From a virus, in IMG/VR virus record IMGVR_UViG_3300034073_002359, positions 1-32,100 of that record: a stretch of DNA of 32,100 nt; one strand, given 5' to 3'. The notes beneath the pieces were generated by a model that saw nothing but the letters and a program-made list of their open reading frames with translations, searched no databases and was not told the DNA's origin. Shown here one piece after another: positions 6,346 through 25,200 of the stretch. The position numbers and the translations under genes were made by a program. Positions within the stretch are counted from its first letter, which is position 1, and each line of letters opens with the position of its first letter.

Positions 6346-6633
6346 ATGAAACTCGGGTTGACCGTTCACGGAACCGATGGCACAAAACGTGTCGCCGTCG
6401 TCGCATTCCCAGACTTGGTCAAATACGAAGAAGCGCACAACGTCTCGATGTCCAAAGTCGAAGACGACATGAAGGTGCGCGACTTGGCTTGGCTGGCGTG
6501 GCATTGCGAGAAACGCAACAAACTGCACCAACTGGATTTCGACTCGTGGTTGGAAGGTGTCGAGAACATCTCGTTGGGTGACGCCGAGGACAACGTGATC
6601 CTCCCTTTGGAGAGCAGTCAGCCCACTGGTTGA
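6346..6633 (+). CDS. Tail assembly chaperone, short form (gpG-like)
   Basis: This 95-residue protein is the zero-frame product of the paired tail chaperone genes, which bind the tape measure during tail building. It follows the tube gene and precedes the tape measure with one long -1 extension available, the classic arrangement. An AAGGAG site lies upstream of the ATG. The C-terminal residues after the slippery site (ESSQPTG) are unique to this unshifted form. Confidence 0.82.
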   Translation: MKLGLTVHGTDGTKRVAVVAFPDLVKYEEAHNVSMSKVEDDMKVRDLAWLAWHCEKRNKLHQLDFDSWLEGVENISLGDAEDNVILPLESSQPTG

Positions 6634-6770
6634 TCGCCTATTTGGCGTGCGAGACCGGCATCGCGCCGTCGGTGTTGCTGACTGAATCACCCCGAATGTT
6701 GTGGACGATGCAGAAGTATCTGTATTGGCGTCACGTGAAGCAGAATCCGAACACGCCCTACAATCGGTGA
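6346..6770 (+). CDS. Tail assembly chaperone, frameshifted long form (gpGT-like)
   Basis: Slipping -1 at 6603-6609 joins the first 88 residues to 53 residues read in the -1 frame, giving about 141 residues. The extension contains HWLIAYLACETGIAPS and MLWTMQKYLYWRH, phrases typical of the gpT-like half in actinobacteriophages. It has no start codon of its own at the right place and ends at the TGA at 6768-6770, just before the next gene. The combination of slippery heptamer, -1 frame and recognisable extension makes programmed frameshifting very likely. Confidence 0.82.
6603..6609 (+). promoter_or_regulatory. Programmed -1 ribosomal frameshift site (C CCT TTG)
   Basis: The heptamer CCCTTTG is in the correct X-XXY-YYZ register with the zero-frame codons CCT TTG, 8 codons before the zero-frame stop. 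After slippage the ribosome reads GGA GAG CAG in the -1 frame and enters the conserved gpT-like extension. Confidence 0.82.
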
Positions 6771-6771
6771 C

Positions 6772-7371
6772 ATGGCAAAGGTATCGAGCGGCACGCGGAT
6801 AGCAGCCGGGCGTGCCGGTGACGTATCGTTCGCCGCTCCAGGGTTGATGGAGTTTCTGCGTGCCGCATCGCAGGCGATTCCAGACTTCGACAAGGCGATG
6901 CGCAAGGCCGCAGAAGACGTGGCGCAGAAGGTAGTGGACGACGCCAAGAAGAACGCTGCCGCCCAGCCTCCGCACGGCAGGAACAACACTTCGGGCCGTT
7001 CGCAGGCTCAGGTCGTGGTGAACGGGTTGCGTGCCCGGCGTGACCGCATCCCGACCATCAAACTCGATCACAACAAGCTGTATCCGTCAAAGTCACGGAG
7101 CAACCGCAAACGTGGTCGAGGCAGGCTCGGTCCCGGACTGGCATCGGCTGGCATCAAAGGCTTCGACCGCAAGGTCACCTACGGCGACGTGTTCTACGGA
7201 GCCGAGTTCGGCGGTAGGGCACGCAAGACCACGCAACAGTTCCTCCGTCACCGCGGCCGCCAGGGCTACTTCTTCTGGCAGGCCGTCCGAGACAACAAGT
7301 CGTACATCGTTCAGGAATACTCCGATGCCATCGAGCGCGTATTGAAGGAGCTTGCCAAGGGCGCGACGTGA
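6772..7371 (+). CDS. HK97 gp10-like neck/minor structural protein
   Basis: This 199-residue basic protein has the look of gp10-like neck proteins. There is an N-terminal helix (GLMEFLRAASQAIPDFDKAMRKAAEDVAQKV), a Lys/Arg/Ser-rich middle, and a C-terminal region with VFYGAEFGGRARKTTQQF, then GYFFWQAVRDN, and a final helix. The 'Y-G-A-E-F-G' followed by 'F-W-Q-A-V' is typical. In many phages this gene lies between connector and tail terminator; here it follows the tail chaperone. Confidence 0.68.
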   Translation: MAKVSSGTRIAAGRAGDVSFAAPGLMEFLRAASQAIPDFDKAMRKAAEDVAQKVVDDAKKNAAAQPPHGRNNTSGRSQAQVVVNGLRARRDRIPTIKLDHNKLYPSKSRSNRKRGRGRLGPGLASAGIKGFDRKVTYGDVFYGAEFGGRARKTTQQFLRHRGRQGYFFWQAVRDNKSYIVQEYSDAIERVLKELAKGAT

Positions 7372-7380
7372 CGCTAGGGT
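7352..7380 (+). promoter_or_regulatory. Sigma70-like promoter for the primase-like gene
   Basis: TTGCCA (7352-7357), a 17-nt spacer and TAGGGT (7375-7380) precede the ATG at 7399. An AGGAGG (7387-7392) lies between, almost at the predicted transcript start. The promoter lies inside the end of the upstream tail gene, giving the next gene independent expression. Confidence 0.45.
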
Positions 7381-7398
7381 GACCGTAGGAGGCCCGCC

Positions 7399-8115
7399 AT
7401 GCCTACTGAAATCAAGGCAGTCAAGTTCGACGACCTCAAGACCATCCACCCAAAGCAGTTCGCCATCTCGTGGCTCGGGCTGCAATCGTTGCTGACGATC
7501 AGTTTGCCGAACGTCGACAAGACAAAACGCGACCTCTGGTCACCCGTCGAGTACTACCACCTGTCGACCAGAGGCAACCGCAACGTCAAGAACGTGACGT
7601 GTCTCGTCGTCGACATGGACGGCGAATCATTCGACTACGCCAAACTCGATGGGCTCGAGTACCTCGCCTACACCACATGGTCGCATCAGCCCGATGACGA
7701 GCACTGGCACTTGGTGCTGCCGCTCGCCAAACCCGTGCCGGGGCACATGTGGAGCGAGGTGTGGGTGCAGTTGCTTGAGCGTATCAACGTCGTAGGTGAC
7801 CCGCAGACCAAGGACCCTGCCCGCATCTTCTACCGTCCGCAGCATCGCCCTGGTGCGACGCCCGGTTTCAGGCAGCAGCACGGTGCGTTCCTCGATCCGC
7901 AGATACCTGAACGGTTCGTGTCGCGTCACCTCACCAAGTACCGCAACCCGCGGACCATCGAGCAACACAACTCGAGCAACGAACATTGGCGACCCGAATC
8001 GTGGTGGCATGAACCGCAGGATTTGTCACGGTTCAACGGTCTGACTCAACCGCAGATTGCCGCGCAACTGTTGGAGGAGTTCCGGGAACTCCGAAAGTCG
8101 TGGGTTCTTGACTGA
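7399..8115 (+). CDS. Stand-alone archaeo-eukaryotic primase/polymerase-like domain protein
   Basis: This 238-residue protein does not look structural. It carries CLVVDMDG (D72 and D74), then YTTWSH (T93-H96), HWHLVLPLAKPV, and DPARIFYRP (D139-R142). This order matches the AEP (primase-polymerase) domain found at the front of plasmid and phage replication proteins: an hhhDhD strand, a T-x-S-H, an R/H-hhLPL strand and a D-x-A-R-hhYhP segment. No helicase domain is attached. It sits between the gp10-like gene and the tape measure, with its own promoter-like sequence and an AGGAGG site. It could prime DNA, repair, or act as an accessory 'moron'. The domain call rests on motif order only. Confidence 0.55.
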   Translation: MPTEIKAVKFDDLKTIHPKQFAISWLGLQSLLTISLPNVDKTKRDLWSPVEYYHLSTRGNRNVKNVTCLVVDMDGESFDYAKLDGLEYLAYTTWSHQPDDEHWHLVLPLAKPVPGHMWSEVWVQLLERINVVGDPQTKDPARIFYRPQHRPGATPGFRQQHGAFLDPQIPERFVSRHLTKYRNPRTIEQHNSSNEHWRPESWWHEPQDLSRFNGLTQPQIAAQLLEEFRELRKSWVLD

Positions 8116-8116
8116 G

Positions 8117-8122
8117 TAGAAT
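8117..8122 (+). promoter_or_regulatory. TAGAAT -10-like box before the tape measure gene
   Basis: TAGAAT ends 8 nt before the ATG at 8131, and no Shine-Dalgarno sequence is visible. It matches the pattern at 4681 and 12170 and could give a leaderless transcript. No convincing -35 is present at 16-18 nt. Confidence 0.3.
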
Positions 8123-8130
8123 CGGTCGTC

Positions 8131-10923
8131 ATGGCCGTCACACGCGAGTTCGTCGTCAAGCTTCTCGCCGATTCCAAGGGTTTGATTTCCGACTTCCAGG
8201 CGGTGCGCGGCGAAACCGAAAAGACGTTCGGCGTCGCCAACGAAAAACTCTTGAAGATGATGCCCACCTTCAAGTTGATGACGACCGCCGCCGCGGGCGT
8301 GTTCGGCGGTCTGGTCGCCGGGGCGGGATTGGCGGTCAAGGCTGCGGCGGAGAACGAATCCGCACAGAATCGCCTGCGACAAATCCTGCTCACCACTGGT
8401 AAGGCAACCAGCGAACAAGTCGACGCACTCAACGCCCAAGCCGACGCGCTCGAGCAGGTCGGCGTCGTCGCAGGTGGCAACATCACCGTCCTGCAATCAC
8501 AACTTGCCACGTTTGACCTGCAGGCAGCCACGATCGAGAAACTGACCCCGGCAATCGTCGACTATGTCGTCGCCGAGAAAGGCGCGTCGGCGACCGCAGA
8601 AGATTTCAAGTCGGCAACCAACGGTCTCGCCCAGGCGTTGAACGGCCAGTTCGGTGCATTGACCCGCGTCGGCTTCACACTCGATGACGTCACCAAGGAC
8701 CTGATTTCCAACGGCACCGAAGCCGAACGTGCCGCAGCCCTCGTCGGCGTACTCAACTCCACCTACGGCGGATTCAACGCCTCGCTACGCAACACCACCG
8801 AAGGACAACTGCAGGCGTTCCGCAACTCCCTCGGCAAACTGCAGGAAGACCTCGGCAAGATTCTGCTGCCGCTGTTCAGCACTTTCGCCCAGGTATTGGC
8901 GTCGGTGGCGAACGTCTTGGCGCAGAACTCGACGACGGTCGGCATCTTCCTCGGGGCTCTCGGTCTGCTCTCGGCGGCAATCCTCGCCCTGGCCGGATAC
9001 CTGAAGATTGCCGCATTCCAGAAGCGGTTGATGAACGACGAGTTCCTCAAAGGCATCCTGACGATGAAGAACGCCGAAGGTCAGATGACCAAACTCGGCG
9101 TCGCAGTCCAAAGCCTCGGCAAAGGATTCGCGGTACTTGCCGCAGCACAAGGCATCTTTACGGTCCTCAATGAAGTCACCAATGCCTCGGGCAAGGTTGA
9201 GGACGCAGTCAAGAGAACCACGGTCGCCATCAACCAGTTCCGCAAGGCTGGTGAGGAAGACCCGAAGGCGGTCGTCGAGCAGTTCGCTGCGGCAGCCAGG
9301 GCGATTCAGGATCAGTTCCGTCTGAAGGACGTCATCCAAGAGTTCGGTCGTGATTTCCAGTTCGTGATGGATGGCAACAAGGTCACGATTGAGGCGGCCG
9401 ATGAGGCGTTCCGTGCGTTCCTCGACCAAGACCCGCAGAAGGCGGCGGCAATCGTCACCGCACTCGAGAAACAACTTGCGGTCACCGATCCGACGAGCCG
9501 GGCATACCAAGACTTGAAGGACGCCATCGACCGTTATCGCGGGGCAGTCAACCTGACCATCGCTTCACAGGAGACGTTGAATGAAAATCTGAACAAGACG
9601 TCGTTTTTCTCGTTCAAGAACACCGGTGCCTTGGCGGACATCAAGGTTGCGCACAACAACGAGGCACGTGCACGACTCGCTTCGGCTGACGCAATCGACA
9701 AATGGAACTCCAACATCGACAAGTTGACGAAGAAGTCTGGTGCAGCCAAGTCGGCAATCGACGTGCTTCGGGAAGCCAAGGAGAAAGTGAAATCTGCGAC
9801 GCAGTCGTTGGCGGATGCCCAGATACGCGAACGCAACTCGCAGGAATCGTTGACCGATGCCACCAAGCGGATGCAACTCGCCGACGAAGGTGTGACCCAA
9901 GCCAAGGAACGTCTGGCTCAGGCGATTCGCGGCTACGGTAAGGATTCGAGGGAAGGTGTGTTGGCAACACGTGCCCTGGCTTCGGCGCAGCGTGACGTGC
10001 AGCGTGCCAACACGGCGGTCAGCGACGCATTGTCGCGGGTGACCGAGGCGGAGAAGCGTCTGGCGGATTTGCGTGCATTGAAGGCCGACCCTGAGAAGGT
10101 GACCGACGCCGAGTTTGGTCTAGAGAAATCGAAGCTCAATGTCGAGGAGGCGACGCTGCGTGTCAGCGAAGCGGAGAAGGAACTTGCCGAAACGTTGAAG
10201 GACCCGGAGGCTTCGCCGATTGAGAAGCGTCGGGCGGAGTTGGCGTTGGCTGCGGCGAAGTTCGGGTTGCGTGACGCGATTCGTGACGTCGGTGAATCCG
10301 AACGCGAGTTGATCGCGGTTCGTGCCACCGGGGCGACCGCGGAGCAGTTGGCTGAGGCTGAACGCGATTTGCAGGATGCCAAGACCGCGGTGCAGGATGC
10401 CATCGACCGTCAGACGTTGGCGGTGGAGAAGTTGAACGAGCAGAACGAGGAGTATCGCAAGATCGTGGAGGGTATCCGTGAGACGGATGCCGAATACGTG
10501 AAGTTGTCGGCCGACATCGTGAAGGCAGAAGAGGACCAGGCTTCCGCGGCACGTTCGTTGCGTGACCAGCGGGAGGCTGCAGCCAAGGCGACCGATGCGT
10601 TGCGTGAAGCCGAAGAGCAGCTGCGTCTGAGCCGCAAGGAGCAGCGTGTGGCTGCGTCTGGTGTGCCTGGGCGTGCGTTCGGTGGCCCGGTAATCGGTGG
10701 CCGCCCGTACATGGTTGGTGAGCGTGGACCCGAGTTGTTCGTGCCGTCGTCAACCGGGACCATCATCCCGAACAATCGGGTCGGTGGCGGCGGTGTGGTC
10801 GTGAACGTGACGGTGAATGCAGGTATGGGTACGTCTGGTTCGCAGGTCGGGCAGGAGATCGTGGACGTGTTGCGTCAATACACGCGGGTGTCGGGGCCTC
10901 TGTCGCAGTACGTGGCGGTGTAG
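8131..10923 (+). CDS. Tape measure protein
   Basis: This 930-residue protein sets tail length and is ejected during DNA entry. Its opening (TREFVVKLLADSKGLISDF) and the hydrophobic segment near residues 50-75 are typical. The middle contains a second hydrophobic stretch (TVGIFLGALGLLSAAILALAGYL, about residues 270-292). Residues ~545-840 are long charged heptad repeats (coiled coil, rich in AEK/ADA). The C-terminus has FGGPVIGGRPYMVGERGPELF, a phrase common at the end of actinobacteriophage tape measures. At about 0.15 nm per residue the tail would be roughly 140 nm; that length is an inference from general scaling. It is the longest gene in the window. Confidence 0.93.
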   Translation: MAVTREFVVKLLADSKGLISDFQAVRGETEKTFGVANEKLLKMMPTFKLMTTAAAGVFGGLVAGAGLAVKAAAENESAQNRLRQILLTTGKATSEQVDALNAQADALEQVGVVAGGNITVLQSQLATFDLQAATIEKLTPAIVDYVVAEKGASATAEDFKSATNGLAQALNGQFGALTRVGFTLDDVTKDLISNGTEAERAAALVGVLNSTYGGFNASLRNTTEGQLQAFRNSLGKLQEDLGKILLPLFSTFAQVLASVANVLAQNSTTVGIFLGALGLLSAAILALAGYLKIAAFQKRLMNDEFLKGILTMKNAEGQMTKLGVAVQSLGKGFAVLAAAQGIFTVLNEVTNASGKVEDAVKRTTVAINQFRKAGEEDPKAVVEQFAAAARAIQDQFRLKDVIQEFGRDFQFVMDGNKVTIEAADEAFRAFLDQDPQKAAAIVTALEKQLAVTDPTSRAYQDLKDAIDRYRGAVNLTIASQETLNENLNKTSFFSFKNTGALADIKVAHNNEARARLASADAIDKWNSNIDKLTKKSGAAKSAIDVLREAKEKVKSATQSLADAQIRERNSQESLTDATKRMQLADEGVTQAKERLAQAIRGYGKDSREGVLATRALASAQRDVQRANTAVSDALSRVTEAEKRLADLRALKADPEKVTDAEFGLEKSKLNVEEATLRVSEAEKELAETLKDPEASPIEKRRAELALAAAKFGLRDAIRDVGESERELIAVRATGATAEQLAEAERDLQDAKTAVQDAIDRQTLAVEKLNEQNEEYRKIVEGIRETDAEYVKLSADIVKAEEDQASAARSLRDQREAAAKATDALREAEEQLRLSRKEQRVAASGVPGRAFGGPVIGGRPYMVGERGPELFVPSSTGTIIPNNRVGGGGVVVNVTVNAGMGTSGSQVGQEIVDVLRQYTRVSGPLSQYVAV

Positions 10924-13362: not shown

Positions 13363-13620
13363 ATGGCACACTTTGCACGCATTGAAAATGGGATTGTCCA
13401 AGAAGTCAACGTAATCAACAATGCTGATTGTGGCGGCGGCGACTTCCCTGAGAGTGAACCCGTCGGTCAAGCATTCATCGCTTCGCTAGGTCTCGCAGGC
13501 CAATGGTTGCAGTGCTCCTACCACGGCAACTTTCGGGCCGCGTATCCCGGCATCGGCTGGACATACGATTCGGATACCGACACATTCATCGCACCGCCTG
13601 TAGAAGTGGATGAAGCGTAG
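13363..13620 (+). CDS. Small fibre-associated protein, cyanophage-type domain (85 aa)
   Basis: The protein reads MAHFARIENGIVQEVNVINN, then FPESEPVGQAFIASLGL, and SYHGNFRAAYPGIGWTYD. This is a domain I recognise from many cyanophage and other aquatic phage proteins, often as a C-terminal extension of fibres or as a small stand-alone protein. The ATG at 13363 is preferred over longer in-frame starts that overlap the fibre gene. Role unknown; placement beside the fibre suggests a tip, an adaptor or an assembly chaperone. Confidence 0.72.
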   Translation: MAHFARIENGIVQEVNVINNADCGGGDFPESEPVGQAFIASLGLAGQWLQCSYHGNFRAAYPGIGWTYDSDTDTFIAPPVEVDEA

Positions 13621-13849
13621 AGCCTTCGCAGCTCTACCCGCCCTGCTCATCGTCCTGTTCGCATCCCAGGCGAACGCTCAACCGCTCGAATGCCGCGAGG
13701 TAGAACTCGACGCACGATACGGCACGGCTTACGAATGCAAGGCGTCGTGGCTTCCTGACGGGTCACGCATAACCGAAGAACAACGCAAGACCGTCAACGC
13801 AATCGTGTTGTTGACGGTGGTCGCCCCGGTGACCAGGAGACGACAATGA
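13610..13849 (+). CDS. Small exported protein with signal peptide (79 aa)
   Basis: The N-terminus (MKRRAFAALPALLIVLFASQANA) is a textbook signal peptide with cleavage likely after ANA. The mature part (~56 residues) has two cysteines (LECRE and YECKA) that could form a disulfide, and a Lys/Arg-rich tail. It overlaps the previous gene by 11 bp and the next by 4. It opens the lysis region and might act outside the membrane, for example in lysis or superinfection exclusion. No known family recognised. Confidence 0.6.
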   Translation: MKRRAFAALPALLIVLFASQANAQPLECREVELDARYGTAYECKASWLPDGSRITEEQRKTVNAIVLLTVVAPVTRRRQ

Positions 13850-15045: not shown

Positions 15046-15238
15046 CGTCACGTCAACCGAGACGAGATTGGAAGCACATCTCGGCAAGGAAGGCTGGAAG
15101 GACTTTCAGAAAGCCTGCCTTGACAAATCGTTCTCGACTTCGGTCATCACACGGGTCGTGAAATCGTCGGGCTTCAGTGTCTCGTATTCCGCGATCCAGC
15201 GGATACGTGTTGACATCCAGAAGCAGGCCGAACAGTGA
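14996..15238 (+). CDS. Small hypothetical protein, possible helix-turn-helix (80 aa)
   Basis: The ATG at 14996 follows AAAGGAG. The C-terminal half (FSTSVITRVVKSSGFSVSYSAIQRIR) has the spacing of a helix-turn-helix unit. It overlaps both neighbours, and its stop shares GTGA with the next gene. Function unknown; DNA binding is a guess from composition. Confidence 0.5.
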   Translation: MGELFDAIRSEAAKRPNVTSTETRLEAHLGKEGWKDFQKACLDKSFSTSVITRVVKSSGFSVSYSAIQRIRVDIQKQAEQ

Positions 15239-16242
15239 CCGCGTATGACCACCAGCGGGAACTCGACGAACTCCAGCGGCTCCTCAAGAAAGCCCAGCAG
15301 GAAGCGGCGGCGAACAAGCGGCGCACCGACGACCTCGTCAACGCGGTCTACACCGCGGCGTATGAGGCAGCCAAGGCTTCCGGCAGAGGACTCGCTGTCA
15401 AGCGCCCTGCCGTGGATAAGCGACGCAAAGGGCACGAGGTTGCGCTGGTTCACACGACCGACTGGCAACTAGGCAAGAAGACCTCGTCATACGGCATCCA
15501 AATCGCAGACAAGCGTCTCGCTGAGTTCACCGAGAAGGTCATTGCGTTGACAGAGATTCAGCGTGCCGATCACCCGGTTGACGAATGCGTCATCATGTTC
15601 GGCGGTGACATGGTCGAGGGCGGCGGAAACGTGTTCCCGTCTCAAGTCTGGGAGATTGAAGCCCACCTATTCGAGCAGCTCTTTGAGACCGCCAGACTCA
15701 TCGAGCGGATGGTACGCACGTTGCAGGCGAACTTCGCCAAACCATTGCGCATCGTCTGCGAGTGGGGCAACCACGGCAGACTCGGACGCTACGGCGACGG
15801 AACCTACGGAGGAGACAACGCCGACCGGATGGCCTACCGCATCGCCCAAGACCGATGCAAAGACCTCGACGTCACGTGGCAACACTCGGACTCCTGGTAT
15901 CAACGGTTCGAGATCGGTGCCTACAAGGTGCTGCTCGTGCACGGCGACGAAATCAAATCATTCGGCGGCAACGTGCCAGCGTTCGGCATCATGCGAAAGA
16001 TGAACGCCTGGGCATCAGGCGTCATACCCGATTTCACTGACGGGTACCTAGGACATTTTCACCAGAACATCTGCATGACCCTTGCCAACGGTGGACGATG
16101 CTTCGTGACAGGGTCAATCGAGAGCGACTCGGAGTACGCCAAGGAGTTCGTCGCAGCCACCGGCAAACCATCCCAACGCCTGCACTTCGTTGATCCGGCA
16201 CGAGGCAGAGTCACAGCGGAGTACGTCGTATGGCTCGCCTAG
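15235..16242 (+). CDS. Calcineurin-like metallophosphoesterase
   Basis: The 335-residue protein has an N-terminal helical, coiled-coil-like segment (residues ~5-50) and a metallophosphoesterase core. Metal-binding motifs appear in order: D76-W-Q78 (HTTDWQLG), D125 (GGDMVEG), N179-H180 (WGNHGR), H236 (LVHGDE), and H274/H276 (GHFHQ). The usual D-x-H has Q at position 78, which may alter metal use. Relatives include phage phosphatases/nucleases and SbcD/Mre11. No SbcC-like ATPase is nearby. The GTG start overlaps the previous stop. Confidence 0.82.
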   Translation: MTAYDHQRELDELQRLLKKAQQEAAANKRRTDDLVNAVYTAAYEAAKASGRGLAVKRPAVDKRRKGHEVALVHTTDWQLGKKTSSYGIQIADKRLAEFTEKVIALTEIQRADHPVDECVIMFGGDMVEGGGNVFPSQVWEIEAHLFEQLFETARLIERMVRTLQANFAKPLRIVCEWGNHGRLGRYGDGTYGGDNADRMAYRIAQDRCKDLDVTWQHSDSWYQRFEIGAYKVLLVHGDEIKSFGGNVPAFGIMRKMNAWASGVIPDFTDGYLGHFHQNICMTLANGGRCFVTGSIESDSEYAKEFVAATGKPSQRLHFVDPARGRVTAEYVVWLA

Positions 16243-18118: not shown

Positions 18119-19222
18119 ATGACAAACGCCGACGAGTTCACGACCGCCGAAGCACCCAAAGACCGATGGGGTCGCTACCGCATCATCACCACGAGCGGTA
18201 AAGAAACATCGTTCACCCGCGTCACCACGATTGCGAAGTGTCTTGATGATGAAGGTGCGTTGACCGCGTGGAAGGGTCGCATGACTGCGACAGGTCTCGT
18301 GCACCGCAACGACCTACTCGTCGCCGCATCGACATGTCTCGATGACAAGCAGTCGCTCGACCGCATCGTGCAACAGGCAATCGAAGCCGCAGGTGCATCA
18401 AGCAAAGCGAACATCGGCACCGCACTCCATCAACTCACGCAGGCGATCGACCTCGGCCAGAAACCAGCAATCCTCCCCGGTCTCCAAGGCGATGTCGACG
18501 CATACGTTGCAGGCATCACCCGACACGGCGTCATCATCGACCCGCGGCTCGTCGAAGTGCTGCTCGTCAACGAGAAGTACGAGTACGCAGGTACCGCGGA
18601 CCGCATCGCCCGATTCCGCAACCGTAAGCGCAAACAAATCTTCGACCTGAAGACCGGCAACATCGAGTACGCGATCAACGCCATCGCAGTCCAGATGGCG
18701 ATGTACGCCAACGCCGAATACATCTACGACTGGCGCATCAAAGAACGCACACCGATGCCCGAACTCGACAAGACCCGCGGCGTCATCATCCACCTCCCAG
18801 CCGGGCAAGCCAAGTTCGACCTCTACGAACTTGACCTCGTCGCCGGGTGGGAAGCCGCGAAGATGGCGATGGATGTCCGCGCATGGCGGAAACGCAAAGA
18901 CCTGCACATCAAAGTGCATGCGGAGGCGGCGGCCACAGACGGAGTTCCGCCCACAACTGGAGTCGCCGCCTCTGCCGACCTCAACCAAAGCGATGCGCTC
19001 GCCCGCATCTACAACCTGCCCGTCGCCGCACGCGAACTGTTGAAAAAGACGTGGCCCGTACCCGGCGTGAAACTCCCAGACATGAACGAAACGCAGCTCG
19101 ACATCCTGCTCGCACGCATCGTCGAGTTGGAGACCGAGCACTCCGCGCCGTTCATGCCCGACCCCGACCCGCTGCCCGTCAAGAAGAAAACAGCGGTCAA
19201 GAAGAAGGCGGTCAAGAAGTGA
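18119..19222 (+). CDS. RecB/Cas4-like PD-(D/E)xK exonuclease
   Basis: This 367-residue protein likely degrades or resects DNA. The nuclease core has AGTADRI (D161), IFDLKTGN (D176 and K178), and QMAMYA (Q192 and Y196), which are motifs II, III and the RecB-type Q-x-x-x-Y. An upstream helical region includes ANIGTALHQLTQAI, with the motif I-like histidine. The last residues are a short Lys-rich repeat (VKKKTAVKKKAVKK), probably a DNA-contact tail. Such genes pair with single-strand annealing or OB-fold proteins in phage recombination modules; an OB-like candidate lies at 19828. Confidence 0.82.
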   Translation: MTNADEFTTAEAPKDRWGRYRIITTSGKETSFTRVTTIAKCLDDEGALTAWKGRMTATGLVHRNDLLVAASTCLDDKQSLDRIVQQAIEAAGASSKANIGTALHQLTQAIDLGQKPAILPGLQGDVDAYVAGITRHGVIIDPRLVEVLLVNEKYEYAGTADRIARFRNRKRKQIFDLKTGNIEYAINAIAVQMAMYANAEYIYDWRIKERTPMPELDKTRGVIIHLPAGQAKFDLYELDLVAGWEAAKMAMDVRAWRKRKDLHIKVHAEAAATDGVPPTTGVAASADLNQSDALARIYNLPVAARELLKKTWPVPGVKLPDMNETQLDILLARIVELETEHSAPFMPDPDPLPVKKKTAVKKKAVKK

Positions 19223-23358: not shown

Positions 23359-25200
23359 ATGAACGTGCTCGAGCACGCTCTGTCATACGCCGCACGCGGC
23401 ATCCGCGTCATACCCATCGCACCAGGCGAGAAGTATCCGTCAGGCATCGAGGCGTGGCAAACCAAAGCCACCAGCGACACCGACACCATCACCACATGGT
23501 TCACCACGACCTACAAAGGTTGGGGCGTCGGCATCGCCACGGGCAAACTCCGCGACTCCTACCTGTTCGTCCTCGACATCGACGACCGTGAACAGCATCG
23601 CGGCTCAGACACGTTGGCTGACCTCGAAGCAGAACACGGCGAACTACCGCCAACCGTGACGGTGCACACGCCATCCGGTGGCCGCCATCTCTACTTCCGC
23701 TGCAACATCAACGTTCGCAACGACGCAGGGAAACGCCTCGGCCCCGGTCTAGACATCCGAGGCGAAGGCGGCCAAGTCCTCGCACCACCAACGCTGCATC
23801 CGAACGGCAAACCGTACATCGAAGACGTTGAACACGGCTTCAATACCGCACCCGCCTACGCACCCGACTGGCTCATCCAACGCTTGACGGTAGAGCCGAA
23901 GATAGATCGCCACCAGCCACACGACCTCGACGGACTCCGCGACGACCCCAACCTGCCATCCACCCGCTACAACGCCTCACACGACTGGCATTCACTCCTC
24001 ACCGCAGACGGTTGGCGACACGCCTACCAACACAACGGCACCGACTACTACACCCGCCCAGGCAAAGACCGAGGCATCTCGGCCAGCGTCAACCACAACG
24101 GCAACGACGCCCTCATCGTGTTCAGTACCAATGCACCCATCCCACCCGGCGGATACTCACGCTTCGGCTACTACGCACAAACCCGCCACGGCGGTGATTG
24201 GAAGAAAGCCTCCGCCACCTACCTCGGCACCAACCCCACACCCACCACAGCCACCACCCACGAGTTACTCGAGCAGCTCATCGTCTGGCAAGACTTCTGG
24301 AACCAAGACCACAAATCAGAAGACTGGATCGCCTACCCACTCATCGCACGCGGACGCCAGACAGCACTCTTCGCCGTCAGCAAAGAAGGCAAGTCCTACA
24401 TCGCCCTCGCCTGCACCGCAGCCCTCGCCACAGGCAAACCCATCTTCGGCAGACCAGCCCAACCACCAGTCCACGTCCTCTACCTCGACTACGAAATGAC
24501 CGCATCAGACTTGATGGAACGCCTCGACACACTCGGCTACACCAGAGAAGACGACCTCAGCCACCTCCACTACGCCCTCATCCCAAGCCTCCCACCACTC
24601 AACACCTACGAAGGCGCAGCAGCAGTCATGAAACTCGTAGAACTCACAGGAGCCCAAGTCGTCGTCATCGACACCACCGGCCGAGCCGTAGAAGGCGAAG
24701 AGAACTCAGCCGACACCTACCGCGAGTTCGCCCGCACCACCGGACTAAGCCTCAAAGCCGCAGGCGTCGCCCTCCTCCGCACCGACCACGCAGGCAAAGA
24801 CAAAGGCAAAACCCAAGGCCAACGCGGATCATCAGCCAAAAACGACGACGTCGACATCGTCTACCACCTCCAACGCGACGGCCACACCATCAAACTCACC
24901 CGCATCTTCTCCCGCATCGGCTGGGCACCAACCGAAGTCGAACTCATCGAAGAACAACTCGAAGACGACCACAACCCCATCAGACTCAAAGAAACCCTCG
25001 AGACCTTCACCGAAGAAACCTACGACCTCGCCAGACGCATCCTCACGGCCTTCCCTGAGCTCAAACCCGGCATGAAGCAGGAAGACACCACCAAGTTCAG
25101 AGACGAAGCCAGAGCACGAGGCATCAAAGCCAAGAACTCCAAATGGTCCAAAGCCCTCCGAGCCATCGCCCAGAACCGACTACGAGACCCACTCGCCTAA
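23359..25200 (+). CDS. Primase-polymerase / RecA-like helicase fusion
   Basis: This 613-residue protein should drive phage DNA replication. N-terminal primase-polymerase domain (residues ~1-190): VLDIDD (D73 and D75), SGGRHLYF (H110), and GLDIRGEGGQVLAPP, the three signature regions of the phage/plasmid AEP family. C-terminal RecA-like ATPase (~residues 310-560): Walker A AVSKEGKS (339-346), VLYLDYEM, and Walker B VVVIDTTGRA. A small helical end follows. GGGAG lies upstream of the ATG. Codons here are strikingly C- and A-rich on the + strand compared with the terminase genes further on. The next 240 nt are repeat-rich and could be the origin. Confidence 0.9.
   Translation: MNVLEHALSYAARGIRVIPIAPGEKYPSGIEAWQTKATSDTDTITTWFTTTYKGWGVGIATGKLRDSYLFVLDIDDREQHRGSDTLADLEAEHGELPPTVTVHTPSGGRHLYFRCNINVRNDAGKRLGPGLDIRGEGGQVLAPPTLHPNGKPYIEDVEHGFNTAPAYAPDWLIQRLTVEPKIDRHQPHDLDGLRDDPNLPSTRYNASHDWHSLLTADGWRHAYQHNGTDYYTRPGKDRGISASVNHNGNDALIVFSTNAPIPPGGYSRFGYYAQTRHGGDWKKASATYLGTNPTPTTATTHELLEQLIVWQDFWNQDHKSEDWIAYPLIARGRQTALFAVSKEGKSYIALACTAALATGKPIFGRPAQPPVHVLYLDYEMTASDLMERLDTLGYTREDDLSHLHYALIPSLPPLNTYEGAAAVMKLVELTGAQVVVIDTTGRAVEGEENSADTYREFARTTGLSLKAAGVALLRTDHAGKDKGKTQGQRGSSAKNDDVDIVYHLQRDGHTIKLTRIFSRIGWAPTEVELIEEQLEDDHNPIRLKETLETFTEETYDLARRILTAFPELKPGMKQEDTTKFRDEARARGIKAKNSKWSKALRAIAQNRLRDPLA

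Follow-up and report, generated by a model that had tools for sequence, protein, structure and literature searches.

Why should a small tailed phage keep the gene for a DNA-copying enzyme among the genes that build its virus particle? To our knowledge, replication enzymes are rarely found inside tail operons, and the locus described here further raises the question of why a phage of 32–33 kb with no detected replicative polymerase keeps two proteins of the archaeo-eukaryotic primase (AEP) superfamily. The window, which is the whole virus record of 32,100 bases, contains on its plus strand an ATG-initiated open reading frame (ORF) at positions 7399–8115 that encodes a predicted stand-alone AEP of 238 amino acids. 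This gene, its parts and its neighbours are as follows.

6772–7371, plus strand: HK97 gp10-like tail/neck protein, 199 amino acids, upstream neighbour (PF04883, E = 0.002, just below the cut-off; conserved gene order)
7399–8115, plus strand: stand-alone AEP (primase-polymerase type), 238 amino acids (PHROG profiles, AlphaFold model, PDB 6zp9)
7534–7893, plus strand: predicted AEP catalytic core, residues 46–165, with Y52, D72/D74, H104, D134 and R142 (dN/dS, invariant residues)
7894–8112, plus strand: variable AEP linker (residues 166–199) and short helical C-terminal tail (residues 200–238) (dN/dS, pLDDT)
8131–10923, plus strand: tape measure protein, 930 amino acids, downstream neighbour (PHROG tape-measure matches; conserved gene order)

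The ORF is present where the preliminary description had placed it, and both the 125 distinct homologues that were recovered by scanning the viral collection, with identities as low as about 36%, and a core dN/dS of 0.06 put it beyond chance. The profiles of PHROG 9765 (DNA primase, E = 3.6e-13) and PHROG 256 (DNA helicase N-terminus, E = 3.4e-7) match the ORF as well as all 32 diverse members of the family, and no Pfam or NCBIfam model matches the family in sequence searches that included these members. Matches from a sequence search of the PDB were to designed proteins and were discarded as chance similarity. A hidden Markov model (HMM) built from the 125 distinct tail AEP proteins only, with no distant AEPs in the model, retrieved the stand-alone AEPs of T4-like cyanophages at 47–60 bits and the N-termini of VirE/VapE-type primase-helicases at 24–40 bits, and hhalign gave 94.6% for the tail AEP against the VirE type. 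The AEP relationship, for which an HMM search had been proposed as a check, is thus borne out at the profile level.

The predicted structure agrees. AlphaFold reached a pLDDT of 38 with 17 close sequences and of 87.3 with a 74-row alignment that included distant AEPs. The best solved match of the latter model is the AEP domain of the cyanophage S-2L PrimPol (PDB 6zp9), which was the sole PDB match below E = 0.001 in Foldseek (E = 1.2e-5, prob 1.00) and had a VIA Z score of 8.7 over 136 residues at 3.6 Å. All of the best 14 rows of the VIA comparison are AEPs, 6zp9 being followed by RepB', PriS, the CRISPR-associated Prim-Pol (CAPP) and LigD-Pol; as a Z score of 8.7 alone is middling, it is this run of AEPs, together with the motif match described below, that identifies the protein. 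Within the structure library, the named entry closest to the family is an uncharacterised protein of an uncultured Caudovirales. The linker is poorly predicted (low pLDDT at residues 170–199) and is followed by a C-terminal helix (217–237). No PriCT or helicase domain and no Pfam match was detected in the C-terminal part across the 32 diverse members and, as had been noted from the sequence, the protein ends at residue 238 without a helicase of its own. The fold is therefore predicted to be that of an AEP, as the preliminary description supposed, and model and profiles together confirm ORF 7399–8115 as a real stand-alone archaeo-eukaryotic primase.

The motif residues on which that assignment had been based are conserved in the homologues. 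Y52, R58, D72, T92, T93, S95, H102, H104, D134, K138, R142 and P147 are identical in all 125 distinct proteins, and D74 in 124, with Glu in the remaining one. AEP motifs I, II and III, as defined previously (PMC5862659), have their tail counterparts in D72/D74, H104 and D134, respectively: motif I (hhhDhD/E) is present as VVDMD, the histidine of motif II (sxH) aligns with H118 of S-2L PrimPol, the small residue of this consensus being replaced by His102 in the tail family, and the aspartate of motif III (hD) aligns with S-2L D146. In close relatives from other families the position of H104 is occupied by Arg. The D-M-D, T-W-S-H and D-P-A-R strings reported earlier lie in the translation at residues 72–74, 93–96 and 139–142, but the significance given to T-x-S-H stands only in part: the string exists, but the motif II histidine is H104 (in HWH), and H96 is Asn in four of the 125 proteins. 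The invariant residues of the tail family correspond to the metal- and nucleotide-binding set of S-2L PrimPol (Y63, E85, D87, T112, K115, H118, D146 and R157; PMC8065100), with D72/D74 equivalent to E85/D87, which were placed by the numbering of that study, the MAFFT alignment being wrong for S-2L motif I; the counterpart of R142 is R157 or R154. Among nine close loci, the AEP core (residues 46–165) has a pS of 0.47 and a pN of 0.045, which corresponds to a dN/dS of about 0.06, and the same ratio is 0.52 in the linker (166–199) and 0.23 in the C-terminal tail. These substitution rates show the predicted active-site core to be under strong purifying selection, and the catalytic competence of the predicted AEP is strongly supported by sequence and model.

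The fold and chemistry assigned to the tail AEP are already known. Its best sequence relatives are the ‘DNA primases’ of T4-like cyanophages (e.g. phage C48C1, OQ984149), which likewise stand alone without a helicase, but these proteins are encoded next to the DNA polymerase gene, have a longer C-terminal part and carry Arg at the position of H104. The VirE/VapE-type proteins (PHROG 256 and 9765; Brevibacillus phage Emery gp96) share the homologous N-terminal AEP domain and its DxD ... D...R pattern, but in these proteins the domain is fused to a VapE-like helicase domain and encoded in replication modules, neither of which applies to the tail AEP. The AEP domain of S-2L PrimPol (PDB 6ZP9), the closest solved fold, has equivalent catalytic residues at about 12% identity; unlike the 238-residue tail AEP, the S-2L enzyme comprises 737 amino acids with PriCT-2 and C-terminal domains, and it has been proposed to be the only polymerase of its phage (PMC8065100). 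RepB' of RSF1010 (PDB 3H25; AEP fold, Z = 7.0) is, like the tail AEP, a small primase without a fused helicase. The RepB' family is, however, distinguished by Gln in motif II and a PriCT-1 domain (PMC5862659), and the tail AEP, with its invariant H104 and no PriCT-1 match, does not belong to it.

How did such a gene come to lie in a tail operon? Its position between a gp10-like and a tape-measure gene, as originally described, was confirmed for both neighbours, the PF04883 match being marginal. The order in the window is head–tail adaptor (4696), tail terminator-like (5325), major tail protein (5912), tail assembly chaperone-like (6346), gp10-like (6772), AEP (7399), tape measure (8131) and tail protein (10927), and the succession of gp10-like, AEP and tape measure is kept in every locus that covers the AEP and its neighbours. 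For thirteen loci found via the major tail protein, the absence of the AEP is explained solely by sequence that stops short of the site. At the same junction no AEP was found in Pontimonas phage phiPsal1, the closest isolate, or in EBPR siphovirus 6, and 80 loci from the phiPsal1-like sister clade are likewise without one; sister loci that reach far enough have a gene of about 200 codons directly 5′ of the tape measure gene, with no gene between. On a tree of 64 head–tail adaptor proteins, the presence of the AEP maps as one change (support for the exact split, 71). This single change and the absence from the sister clade make it most likely that the AEP entered a freshwater phage clade a single time, between the gp10-like and tape-measure genes, and stayed. 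Neither a prophage nor a host turned up in two scans of bacterial genomes.

The possibility that the AEP replaced the tail assembly chaperone was rejected, as the chaperone and its −1 frameshift extension sit upstream, at 6346–6770. Close to the 3′ end of the chaperone gene lies a slippery heptamer, C CCT TTG (6603–6609), after which the −1 frame stays open as far as 6770. The extension that it specifies (...AHWLIAYLACETGIAPS...NPNTPYNR) is strongly conserved, and the arrangement represents a putative gpG/gpGT-type programmed frameshift; the heptamer seems to have a different first base in loci L010 and L016.

Putative expression signals lie on both sides of the AEP gene.

7352–7380, plus strand: promoter-like element, TTGCCA (7352–7357), 17 nt, TAGGGT (7375–7380) (sequence; pattern in relatives)
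7387–7392, plus strand: ribosome-binding site AGGAGG (sequence; AGGAG-type site in nearly all relatives)
8117–8122, plus strand: TAGAAT, probable −10 element of a leaderless transcript, just after the AEP stop codon and 8 nt before the tape-measure ATG

The promoter with a 17-nt spacer and the AGGAGG upstream of the AEP ATG that had been reported are thus both there, the −35 of the former lying inside the 3′ end of the gp10-like gene. The pattern TTG[CA]NN-N15-18-TANNNT at a matching distance to the ATG occurs in 102 of the 125 distinct relatives, compared to 0.6% in mononucleotide shuffles, a count that serves as a guide only because the relatives are not independent. The spacers observed are 16 or 17 nt only. 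A scan with the generic E. coli consensus did not call this element. Coding constraint cannot explain the conservation of the −35 in the L226-like subgroup, where this element falls between genes. Downstream of the AEP, no plus-strand terminator was found, and its stop codon is separated from the tape-measure ATG by 15 nt. In all 125 cases TANNNT lies 8–10 nt before the tape-measure ATG with no evident Shine-Dalgarno site, which suggests that the tape-measure mRNA is leaderless and that its promoter adjoins the AEP stop codon.

Ten of the 125 distinct sequences (L267, L287, L279, L290, L284, L277, L239, L259, L280 and L268) have other small genes in front of the AEP. The nearest encodes a CopG-family ribbon-helix-helix (RHH) protein of about 46 amino acids (PF01402, E = 4e-6), the end of which overlaps the AEP start in a manner indicative of translational coupling, and it is usually preceded by an ORF of about 60 codons; the layout resembles copG-repB.

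The AEP had been described as a ‘moron’. It is an extra gene between genes that are neighbours in the sister clade and has its own conserved promoter-like element, recognised at the sequence level only, but it has no terminator of its own and shows no patchiness among close relatives. The term therefore fits the single insertion and the separate promoter, but not the lack of a terminator or the present fixation in the clade: judged by its distribution, the AEP is a moron by history and is now a fixed core gene of the clade.

The second AEP of the window is encoded in the replication module.

23359–25200, plus strand: Prim-Pol (PF09250, E = 1e-40) fused to an AAA_25 ATPase, 613 amino acids

This is the complete primase-helicase that the preliminary description had pointed out, and the co-occurrence of two AEP-type proteins, which it found unexpected in one small phage, turns out to be general for the clade. 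PF09250 was found in nine of 18 AEP-positive records (in all 18 of which the same search recovered the AEP) and in the window, giving ten records with both. Seven of the Prim-Pol-negative records were inspected (G016 and G017 being left out), and in each Prim-Pol is missing because the contig is cut in that region, so that the idea of the tail AEP as the only primase of some phages was dropped. None of 17 sister records, seven of which are 28–31 kb long, has a PF09250 match over the cut-off or an AEP, and the annotation of phiPsal1 lists RepO and a replisome organizer in place of Prim-Pol/AAA. The replication module thus differs by clade, with Prim-Pol/AAA in the AEP-positive phages and a RepO type in phiPsal1, and replication module and tail junction may have come to differ on possibly one branch. 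That the clades differ in both is suggestive, though not proof, of cooperation between the two AEPs. They belong to one superfamily but to different families: BLASTP between the tail AEP and the Prim-Pol domain of the window gave E = 0.63 and hhalign 0.3%, and the PF09250 profile matched none of the 32 tail AEP members at E ≤ 1, which rules out the tail AEP as a duplicate of the window Prim-Pol. The window ORFs searched gave no match to any DNA polymerase family; relative to locus L011, about 1.2 kb that would join its two ends is missing from the window.

From these observations we infer the biological role of the tail AEP. We consider it probable, by a modest measure, that it is an active DNA-synthesis enzyme working with the phage Prim-Pol helicase during infection. 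Host RNA polymerase would transcribe the gene from its own promoter, apart from the tape-measure gene with its own probable promoter. The AEP, a protein of about 27 kDa, would bind two metal ions via D72, D74 and D134, position the incoming nucleotide by H104 and R142, and probably also T93, K138 and Y52, and synthesise or elongate short DNA where the phage DNA is single-stranded or gapped. Opening the template would fall to the Prim-Pol/AAA helicase (23359), as an AEP without a helicase or a detectable PriCT helical domain needs such a partner. Since a lone AEP domain of this kind would extend or fill rather than unwind, a helper of the Prim-Pol/AAA replicase is favoured, with de novo priming somewhat less likely than gap filling or primer extension. 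Several considerations weigh against this reading: a DNA-synthesis enzyme normally sits in the replication module; the pairing of AEP and Prim-Pol, which rests on one evolutionary event, may be coincidence; and motif II has His in place of the small consensus residue, with Arg at the position of H104 in close relatives from other families.

The invariant place beside the tape measure would be accounted for if the PrimPol were produced together with the tail, travelled inside the tail tube or head and left the particle along with the DNA, so that it could immediately prime or fill the arriving genome. Delivered replication and transcription enzymes have precedent, the N4 virion RNA polymerase gene lying among virion genes and conjugative primases being transferred with DNA (PMC5512222), but the same review lists PrimPol domains in conjugative polyvalent proteins only and in none of those of phages. 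Furthermore, we found no docking signal, since no second occurrence of the C-terminal motif turned up in the genomes searched, and a promoter of its own would uncouple the AEP from tail-gene stoichiometry. Nothing in the sequence speaks directly of virion delivery, which is possible but, in our estimation, unlikely; its fuller form, in which the AEP is built into the tail or head beside the tape measure and the ejected enzyme, as half of a two-AEP replication system, starts or repairs DNA synthesis ahead of all phage gene expression, we regard as quite unlikely.

The single insertion between genes adjacent in the sister clade, with a separate promoter, would suit an accessory function in conflict with other phages or host defence, dispensable for the phage's own replication, in which the AEP, for example, copies or blocks exposed DNA ends. 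AEPs are known in CRISPR loci, CAPP is among the VIA matches, and the coupled RHH gene in 10 of 125 sequences is reminiscent of a self-regulated cassette. Conflict genes usually turn over, however, whereas every locus that covers the site has the AEP, with hardly any variation in its core, which renders this function improbable. A further reading, which the location among structural genes might suggest, is that the AEP fold has been exapted, without catalysis, to serve in the tail or head–tail neck as a structural or DNA-binding element. Yet constraint is strongest on the metal- and nucleotide-binding residues, not all of which a structural role needs, and we consider such an exaptation very improbable. 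The preferred role thus remains that of an enzyme that assists the Prim-Pol/AAA replicase.

What is new here is the context and the fixation. In the literature searched, which left most subscription papers outside, there is no description of a stand-alone AEP in a tail operon; as far as these papers and the databases were searched, its fixation there, its apparent single acquisition and retention and its pairing with a second AEP are without precedent. A DNA-copying enzyme was seemingly inserted once into a virus-particle operon and has been kept under strong selection, fixed next to the tape measure with its predicted active site intact across an abundant clade of small freshwater phages. The system therefore bears on the question of a DNA primase/polymerase being delivered or co-assembled by a tailed phage.

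Several other features of the window were observed. A glycosyltransferase-like gene (1142–2446; PHROG 2170, E = 1.5e-34) lies directly 3′ of the major head protein gene and is conserved in relatives, also in phiPsal1. The tail genes are followed by a tRNA-Pro(ggg) gene on the minus strand (13611–13696), and two clade-conserved genes, at 15235–16242 and 18119–19222, match the phage exonuclease families PHROG 284 and 466.
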